Shown piece after piece: positions 35,666 through 52,019 of a DNA stretch of 55,156 nucleotides. The DNA is from Bacillota bacterium (GTDB lineage Bacteria > Bacillota > UBA4882 > UBA10575): contig JAKOVI010000133.1 in assembly GCA_029782135.1 (NCBI GenBank), positions 74,176-129,331 of the forward strand, given 5' to 3'. The notes beneath the pieces were generated by a model, which saw nothing but the letters and a program-made list of their open reading frames with translations, did not search any database and was not told the origin of the DNA. The position numbers and the translations under genes are program-made. Positions within the stretch are counted from its first letter, which is position 1; every line of letters begins with the position of its first letter.

Positions 35666-35884
35666 GATAGCCCTCAATAAACCTTACCCAACCCGCCAGA
35701 ATGGTGTTCTCCCGTGAATTGAATTTCATGGCTAAGTATTCTTCGCGAAGCGGAGATTGAAAGCGGGTCGCGCGACAGGGAAGTCGCACGCCGCTTTTGG
35801 TTCAGGGGGAACCATCAAGCGGAACTGAGCGATAGAATACTCCAGGAAATTCACCGGAAAAGGAGAACACCATTTTGCCCGGCG
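35666..35884 (+). repeat. Structured intergenic repeat, copy A
   Basis: About 219 bp, related to copy B at 50550-50781 (opposite orientation). It begins with GATAGCCCT. A perfect 13-bp inverted repeat, AATGGTGTTCTCC (35700-35712) and GGAGAACACCATT (35862-35874), bounds the structured part. The arms continue pairing: GTGAATT (35714-35720) with AATTCAC (35848-35854), and AGTATTCT (35735-35742) with AGAATACT (35834-35841). Inside are two hairpins: AAGCGG/CCGCTT with GCGAC/GTCGC (35761-35796), and GGTTC/GAACC (35799-35813). The core 35760-35813 matches copy B at 47 of 54 positions by eye. It could be a MITE-like element or a structured RNA; no protein is encoded. Confidence 0.8.
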
Positions 35885-35907
35885 GAGAATCTTTCTAAGG
35901 TCAAGTT

Positions 35908-35962
35908 AAGAGAATTTAAGAGAATATAATATCTTGACAAGAGAATTTATCCCCCGTATAAT
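35908..35962 (+). promoter_or_regulatory. Promoter of the HTH/methyltransferase gene with phased direct repeats
   Basis: A perfect sigma-A promoter: TTGACA (35934-35939), 17-bp spacer, TATAAT (35957-35962). Three copies of AAGAGAAT(T/A)TA start at 35908, 35918 and 35939, that is 10 and 21 bp apart, on one face of the helix; the third overlaps the spacer. These look like binding sites for a regulator, possibly the HTH protein encoded next. Confidence 0.75.
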
Positions 35963-50549: not shown

Positions 50550-50781
50550 CGCCGGACAAATGGCGTTTCTTTGTTCCAGTGAGTTTCTCGGAGTATTCCA
50601 AAGCTCGCTTCGCTTAAAAGCGGGCAACCGCTTTACGGTTTCTCCTGAATCTAAAGCGGCTCGCGACTTCCCTGTCGCTCGACCCGCTTTTACCTCCGCA
50701 TCGCTAAGAATACTTTACCAGGAAATTCAAGTCACTAAAAAACACCATTCGTCCAGCTAGGGAAGACTTATAAGGGCTATC
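50550..50781 (-). repeat. Structured intergenic repeat, copy B
   Basis: About 232 bp, inverted relative to copy A. The end boxes are AATGGCGTTTCTTTG at 50559 (left) and AACACCATT at 50741-50749 (right), imperfect inverted repeats; GATAGCCCT appears (minus strand) at 50773-50781, as outside the arm in copy A. The conserved core is 50637-50690. Compared with copy A it has an extra hairpin (AAGCGG...CCGCTT type, about 50602-50636). Both flanks (GGCGTC/GGCGGA side and GATAGCCCT side) are shared with A, so the unit is larger than the inverted arms. A TGTCCGG/CCGGACA hairpin (50530-50557) links it to the upstream gene end. Confidence 0.78.
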
Positions 50782-50833
50782 ATTCTACGGGTTAATTGGC
50801 GGGAGGCCCTTTCACTCTGCAATTCAAAAAAGA

Positions 50834-50897: not shown

Positions 50898-52019
50898 CTA
50901 TATTTCTTTCTGGTAAATCCGGTAGATCCGGTAGAGCCTTCCGCCGGCTCCTTCGACCGACCGGATCGACTCCAGATTCATCTCTGCAATCGCCGATCCT
51001 TCCCCATAGGTATAACCCTTGCGGCGCGCTTCCAGCATTAAACGGTGGAAAACCGCACCGTTTACGGCTTTATTGCGGTATTTGGGGACAACAAACTGGA
51101 TAAAGACCCGTGCTCCAGTGATTTTGCGCCGGTACCACAGGTACTTGAGCCAACCAAACGGCAACAAACGGCCATTCAGCTTTTTCATTACCTGGTTATA
51201 GTCGGGTAAAGCCACAACAAAACCGATCGGGTCCTCTCCTGCCCGGGCGATGTATACCAGGTCCGGATCCATATACTGGGCTAAAGTCTGCACTTCCGCC
51301 CGGATCTCCGCCAAAGAGGGCGGCGTCAAATGCTCCCAGGAAGCCGGCATCGCCAAATCAAGGATCTTTTTAATATCCCGGATTTCCCGTTCCATCTGCC
51401 GGCGGTCGAAACGGTCGATGCGAAAGCCGAATTTTTTCATCGCATAGGCGACCACCCGGCCGTACCGCTCCTCGTCAAGCTGTTTAACATCGAAATGGTA
51501 GGCAAATAAATCCATGTGCTTGGCAAAACCGTAATCAACGAAGAGCTGTTCATAATAAGGCGGATTGTAAGAGTTCATTAAGACCGGAGGGCCGTCAAAC
51601 CCTTTGATTAAAATCCCGCGGTTGTCATCCCCATTCGTGGGGGAAACCGGCCCGACGACCCGCGTTAAGCCTCTCTCCCGCAACCATGCGGTCGCCGTCT
51701 CAAATAAGGAATTGGCCACCGCTTGCTCCTCAATTGATTCAAAGAGACTGATATATCCTTCGTTCTTCCCCTTTTCCCGGTTGAGTTTTGTATTTACCCC
51801 GACCAGGATCCGTCCAACCACTTGCCCATCCTTGACGGCTAAAAAGAAAGCATGTGGTTCATCCGGCGCCAACAAAGGATTATTCTTTCCTTGCAAAGTC
51901 CGGAGGAGGGAGGTCCGCAAGGGCGGCACCCAAAACGGATCTTTTTTATACAACTCCCAGGGCAAAGCGATAAATTTCTTTAATCCGCGCGCATCATGGA
52001 TTTCTTCAATTCTAATCAT
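50898..52019 (-). CDS. GNAT-superfamily-like protein of unknown function
   Basis: A 373-residue cytoplasmic protein. The N-terminal half (FIALPWELYKKDPFWVPPL, FFLAVKDGQVVGRI, RGLTRVVGPVSPTNGDDNRG) and the C-terminal half (VYIARAGEDPIGFVVALPD, FVVPKYRNKAVNGAVFHRLM, GEGSAIAEMN) each resemble an N-acetyltransferase fold, giving a tandem GNAT-like arrangement seen in a widespread uncharacterised family. Substrate unknown. Start ATG 52019. It follows the DUF819 gene by 21 bp on the same strand, so the two form an operon. Confidence 0.75.
   Translation of the reverse strand: MIRIEEIHDARGLKKFIALPWELYKKDPFWVPPLRTSLLRTLQGKNNPLLAPDEPHAFFLAVKDGQVVGRILVGVNTKLNREKGKNEGYISLFESIEEQAVANSLFETATAWLRERGLTRVVGPVSPTNGDDNRGILIKGFDGPPVLMNSYNPPYYEQLFVDYGFAKHMDLFAYHFDVKQLDEERYGRVVAYAMKKFGFRIDRFDRRQMEREIRDIKKILDLAMPASWEHLTPPSLAEIRAEVQTLAQYMDPDLVYIARAGEDPIGFVVALPDYNQVMKKLNGRLLPFGWLKYLWYRRKITGARVFIQFVVPKYRNKAVNGAVFHRLMLEARRKGYTYGEGSAIAEMNLESIRSVEGAGGRLYRIYRIYQKEI

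Follow-up and report, generated by a model that had tools for sequence, protein, structure and literature searches.

The window analysed here, a stretch of 55,156 nucleotides of Bacillota DNA, contains two copies of a non-coding unit that forms long hairpins. Copy A (219 bp, 35666-35884) lies between the argG terminator and the promoter of an HTH/methyltransferase gene, and copy B lies at about 50553-50784 in the opposite orientation. Both had been noticed in a preliminary description. Their features are as follows.

35666-35885, minus strand: copy A, probable relic of a hairpin-bearing element; the canonical orientation is the minus strand, with the B arm at high and the A arm at low coordinates
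35666-35693, minus strand: copy A, remnant of the A-side tail (..GGTTGGGTAAGGTTTATTGAGGGCTATC on the minus strand), a tail conserved in relatives
35694-35712, unstranded: copy A outer stem, A arm CGCCAGAATGGTGTTCTCC, pairing with 35862-35885
35721-35742, unstranded: copy A middle stem, A side (GAATTTC and AGTATTCT blocks), pairing with 35834-35852
35756-35770, unstranded: copy A inner stem, A strand only (TTGAAAGCGGG region), the partner strand (about 18 nt) being deleted
35772-35787, unstranded: copy A inner hairpin 2 (GCGAC-loop-GTCGC), paired
35791-35822, unstranded: copy A inner hairpin 1 (CCGCTT..GGTTC-loop-GAACC..AAGCGG), paired
35834-35852, unstranded: copy A middle stem, B side, pairing with the A side
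35862-35885, unstranded: copy A outer stem, B arm GGAGAACACCATTTTGCCCGGCGG, pairing with the A arm
50553-50784, plus strand: copy B, probable relic of the element seen in copy A; the plus strand is the canonical one, the core is complete and neither end can be recognised

The pairing described earlier for copy A is present. The perfect 13-bp inverted repeat is formed by AATGGTGTTCTCC (35700-35712) and GGAGAACACCATT (35862-35874), the 7-bp block by GAATTTC (35721-35727) and GAAATTC (35846-35852), and the 8-bp block by AGTATTCT (35735-35742) and AGAATACT (35834-35841). The two inner hairpins pair GCGAC (35772-35776) with GTCGC (35783-35787) and CCGCTT..GGTTC (35791-35803) with GAACC..AAGCGG (35809-35822). 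The 13-bp repeat had been called terminal, which does not hold: the complete element extends beyond it, and copy A is truncated at both ends. The strand of the inner stem that copy A lacks is present in intact copies, as seen by alignment. Whichever strand was folded, copy A did better than each of 200 dinucleotide-shuffled sequences (z = -4.4 for plus and -6.3 for minus). Close to copy A, a tandem decamer (TTAAGAGAAT, 2.4 copies, 35906-35929), which looks like an operator, lies just upstream of the TTGACA-TATAAT promoter of the HTH/methyltransferase gene, and the sister species has a similar repeat in the corresponding position. Another short tandem repeat (GGTAGATCC, 2.7 copies, 50912-50935) lies beyond copy B, close to where the gene at 50898 ends.

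All genomes compared were draft metagenome assemblies, the host genome consisting of 163 contigs and 2.38 Mb. A search of the whole genome with a window copy, as had been proposed, gave 28 matches; with a consensus built from the best copies it gave 55, pieces counted, nine of them near full length. The sister species, the sole congener of the host, contained 45 matches to the consensus. Across the family, matches were found in 12 of 16 genomes and four of six genera, with up to 93% identity to the consensus for copies in a different genus, the core being well conserved between genera. No big hairpin was found in 13 other genomes of the class, plasmids and phages gave no match, and viral contigs searched with two patterns gave no exact match. 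The named matches were Bacillota metagenome assemblies (UBA11021, AS09scLD_265), whose isolate names point to an origin in anaerobic digesters.

Many copies are halves, which keep one outer arm, are cut at varying inner positions and often lie beside a gene end; in some copies the core has been lost between short direct repeats. Truncations of the attC or retroposon type were considered for the halves and rejected because halves of both kinds occur, the breakpoints vary and the core is lost between short direct repeats. These patterns argue for plain decay, as far as it can be read from the sequences. In one pair of orthologous copies (L085 at G006:C120 and L086 at G008:C10), inner hairpin 1 is replaced by about 90 nt of other sequence, with the arms kept. 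Assembly gaps and contig ends of genome G015 fall inside elements (L078-L083, L153). Copy numbers in draft genomes are therefore minimum values, and such assemblies might lack an autonomous copy.

Conservation in the flanks of copies across the family extended beyond the hairpin. The complete hairpin-bearing element is about 330 nt long and consists of GTAG and a left-end hairpin (TCGCYCACSCYGGC...), a module, a tail, and TATTTTCTAR followed by GTAG, the module being a 200-nt interrupted stem that ends in the two hairpins. Upstream of the B arm we found GTAGTCGC(C/T)CAC... with a small hairpin such as CCCCAGCAAGCTGGGG, and GTAG adjoins a palindrome, GTAGTCGCCCACCCCAGCAAGCTGGGGCAAGCG and variants. 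The A arm is followed by GGCTGGGTAAAGGCTTACGAGGGCTATC, then by degenerate 7-nt units (GYRACGA) in a row, and then by TATTTTCTARGTAG. An example of such a run between the A arm and the right end is GTGACGAGTAACGAGCGACGAACAACGAG, and such runs were seen in A-side flanks, for example at L033, L038, L041 and L010.

The right-end motif TTTTCTARGTAG occurred 51 times in G015 versus two for the reversed control. It bounds complete elements of 95-330 nt with common left ends, often arranged head to tail: elements of 95 nt, of 121-137 nt without the big hairpin, of 166-173 nt with small hairpins, and of 223-330 nt with the big hairpin. Overall, complete units ranged from 74 to 330 nt. The left-end hairpin was present in several element types; a right-end hairpin was seen by eye in the 166-173-nt type only, and minimum-energy folds gave no clean sign of one. 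The left flanks are themselves similar to the right end (about TTnTAAGTAG). Neighbouring pairs on G015 contigs were more often alike than unlike in orientation (10 versus 6), a bias too weak to be used. When these ends were sought at the two window copies, the best matches were no better than those to shuffles, and we therefore regard both copies as relics.

The 121-nt form had 33 strong matches in each of G014 and G015, and its left end was also found in G019, G020 and G021, three genomes that belong to a different family within the class. There it is followed by unrelated long hairpins, e.g. CCCGCAGAGGCGCAAAGACGCAG...CTGCGTCTCCGCGTCTTGGCGGG, several of which have a right end too, such as TTTATTTTCTGAGTAG or TATTTTCTAAGTAG. 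Four loci (L224, at G019:C2:254700-255400, L225, L227 and L228) carry GTAG left ends with unrelated long hairpins of the CGCAGAGGCGCAAAGACGCAG and CCGCGGGTTAAAAACC types. Among 399 genomes drawn across the phylum, the strict left-end pattern was found in three members of this class only. Since the same ends enclose the big hairpin, small hairpins, none, or unrelated long hairpins, the ends constitute the system and the hairpin is a swappable module. We tentatively suggest, while thinking it rather less than probable, that this one pair of ends (GTAG and the left hairpin; TATTTTCTAR and GTAG) is a class-wide platform that takes up unrelated long hairpins and disperses them as passengers by means of an enzyme other than a recognised Y1 or DDE transposase.

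Insertion was assessed by searching the joined flanks of elements in eight species of a sister genus. The gene names used here (gatC, gatA, tktN) are putative, as read from the encoded gene ends. Between gatC and gatA, three species (G004, G008, G009) have an empty site reading ATGGA/ATAG/GAGG, whereas G006 reads ATGGA/GTAG-element-TTATTTTCCAG-GTAG/GAGG, slashes marking the boundaries. The G006 element is complete (337 nt including both GTAGs) and contains a hairpin of the copy A type; the TAG stop codon and the GAGG before gatA are kept. Near the end of tktN, the sister species have the empty site TTTAGGTAG/TTTAGAA, one of seven having GTAA, and G008 carries a short element of 167 nt, bounded by ends of the same type and inserted exactly behind GTAG, which provides a new stop codon. 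A third site (L174, on contig C6 of G008) contains an insertion relative to four species, with less exact edges; at L046, L047 and L059, alignment across the sister species was too poor for exact boundaries. The empty sites at gatC/gatA and tktN thus demonstrate insertion at GTAG. The hairpin-bearing element is a dispersed sequence with fixed ends and no coding capacity, and the GTAG sites where it inserted remain unoccupied in sister species.

The preliminary description had left open whether the unit is a MITE-like mobile element or a structured RNA family. The structure is real, as indicated by pairing and compensatory changes: in 23 full-length copies from nine genomes, a structure of 63 pairs was 91.7% paired, and 27 of the 63 pairs showed at least one compensatory double change, compared with a mean of 10.1 after shuffling and 4-11 for slid structures. 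Such covariation, together with the strong folding and a core consensus well conserved between genera, is what a non-coding RNA family with dispersed gene copies would show. Yet the mismatches were symmetric (53 G.T versus 49 A.C cells), so that neither strand displays RNA-like wobble tolerance; in an RNA under selection, G.U is expected to be far better tolerated than A.C on its own strand. Furthermore, orthologous hairpins in the two closest species were 83% (HtrA-RlmH) and 75% (window copy A) identical, versus 83-87% for coding DNA further out. Individual copies therefore show no visible protection, a pattern suggesting that copying renews the conserved form. Compensatory changes could also arise, in the absence of any RNA function, when template switching corrects imperfect palindromes. 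The comparison with Rfam that had been advised gave no match at gathering score for the window copies and nothing credible at E<=1 for the copies of relatives. With the mismatch symmetry and the decay of orthologous copies, nothing points to RNA-level selection; the many halves cut at varying positions and the empty sites also speak against an RNA family, which we consider very improbable. The covariation is real but is consistent with a DNA hairpin that is used, or renewed, as the element moves. Of the two readings offered, the mobile one is thus borne out by the dispersal of the copies, the constancy of their ends and the clean empty sites, and the RNA one is not: the finding is mobile DNA of a new family, not a new RNA class. 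It also illustrates a trap for the discovery of non-coding RNAs, as strong covariation can arise in DNA elements without any sign of RNA function.

Within the mobile reading, we considered the possibility that the element is a MITE of a DDE transposase with a 4-bp target duplication, GTAG. The tetranucleotide does flank inserted copies on both sides and (G)TAG occurs once in empty sites. Yet the letters of the target are the same almost everywhere, no target duplication varying with the site was seen, and a deviation in one flank is not matched in the other (TTAG/GTAG, TGAG/GTAG), as it would be in a target duplication. Moreover, the insertion boundaries carry no terminal inverted repeats: the empty sites give GTAGTCGC and TATTTTCTAR-GTAG as ends, so that the left-end hairpin and TATTTTCTAR are not inverted repeats of each other. 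We therefore find a DDE MITE unlikely. Less likely still would be repeats of the REP/BIME type, kept for a role in the host, for instance to terminate transcription or to protect mRNA at the 3' ends of genes. In a mechanical test, the TAG of GTAG was the stop codon of the upstream frame at 10 of 55 non-tandem left ends, and further left ends fell just after a stop codon; GTAG-tagged REPs likewise sit mostly downstream of genes (PMC3733652). However, any target that includes TAG would by itself lead to stop codons, with no host function needed, and most copies are truncated and decay about as fast as the surrounding DNA.

We are thus nearly certain that the element is mobile and non-autonomous, and its decayed insertions are very probably what copies A and B represent, this being the best explanation for them. 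Transposition of single strands, carried out in trans in the manner of IS200/IS605, is the candidate mechanism that fits best, because GTAG is fixed, the ends are unlike, the left flanks resemble the right end, arrays are head to tail and the flanking letters do not covary. In this mechanism, an enzyme supplied in trans would recognise the ends in their folded state, most likely on single-stranded DNA as IS200/IS605 and TnpAREP enzymes do, and would cleave beside GTAG both in the target and at the right end. The big hairpin would be a passenger, exchangeable for others between the same ends, and copies would decay after insertion. That the enzyme is of the HUH type appears to us an even bet. 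The fixed GTAG on both sides is also compatible with another type of transposase making a 4-bp duplication, or with site-specific recombination within GTAG.

A Y1 transposase was sought as the parent in the family and nine genomes of the class, and none had matching ends. Y1 transposases were absent from 14 of the 16 genomes of the family; the copy in G014 is a broken IS200-like gene and that in G011 a short RAYT-like frame. Neither a left nor a right end was found within the fetched flanks of any of 15 Y1 loci examined in the class. The long spans between ends in G015, searched for an autonomous element, contained only host genes or assembly gaps and no enzyme.

Among known systems, GTAG-tagged REPs and REPINs with their TnpAREP (RAYT) (PMC3733652, PMC8266576) are similarly non-coding, multicopy and lineage-restricted, with GTAG directly before a hairpin and often near gene 3' ends. 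REPs, however, measure 20-40 bp, whereas the present units measure 74-330 nt and have GTAG at both junctions, a fixed right end and insertion at GTAG; in REP systems the RAYT gene is flanked by repeats, unlike the 15 Y1 loci mentioned above. Neither Firmicutes nor Clostridia are mentioned in the survey of GTAG families. Non-autonomous elements derived from IS200/IS605 (such as PATEs, named in PMC3119063) share the unlike left and right ends and, at least on the left, the hairpins near them. They also share a short fixed target similar to the right end, arrays of copies placed head to tail and the lack of a variable target duplication; insertion 3' of such a target is what we observed, though formally it is also compatible with a fixed 4-bp duplication. 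The present family differs from them by its long, exchangeable central hairpins, and no parent IS with its ends was found. The target sequences of the known IS200/IS605-derived members also differ. Classical bacterial MITEs (Bcr1, RUP, NEMIS, ERIC; PMC3733652) are likewise non-coding and dispersed, often lie beside genes and contain inverted repeats, but these form their termini, whereas the big inverted repeat of the present element is internal and its two ends differ. The earlier remark that the unit was not recognised as a known class thus stands for the family but not for the kind. What we describe is a new family of mobile DNA in uncultured Bacillota, confined to one lineage and devoid of genes. 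Its insertion sites are defined almost to the base, its target overlaps stop codons and its hairpin modules can be exchanged, features that make its enzyme a definite object of search; in kind, it is a GTAG-bound, hairpin-carrying, non-autonomous element, and this kind is already known.
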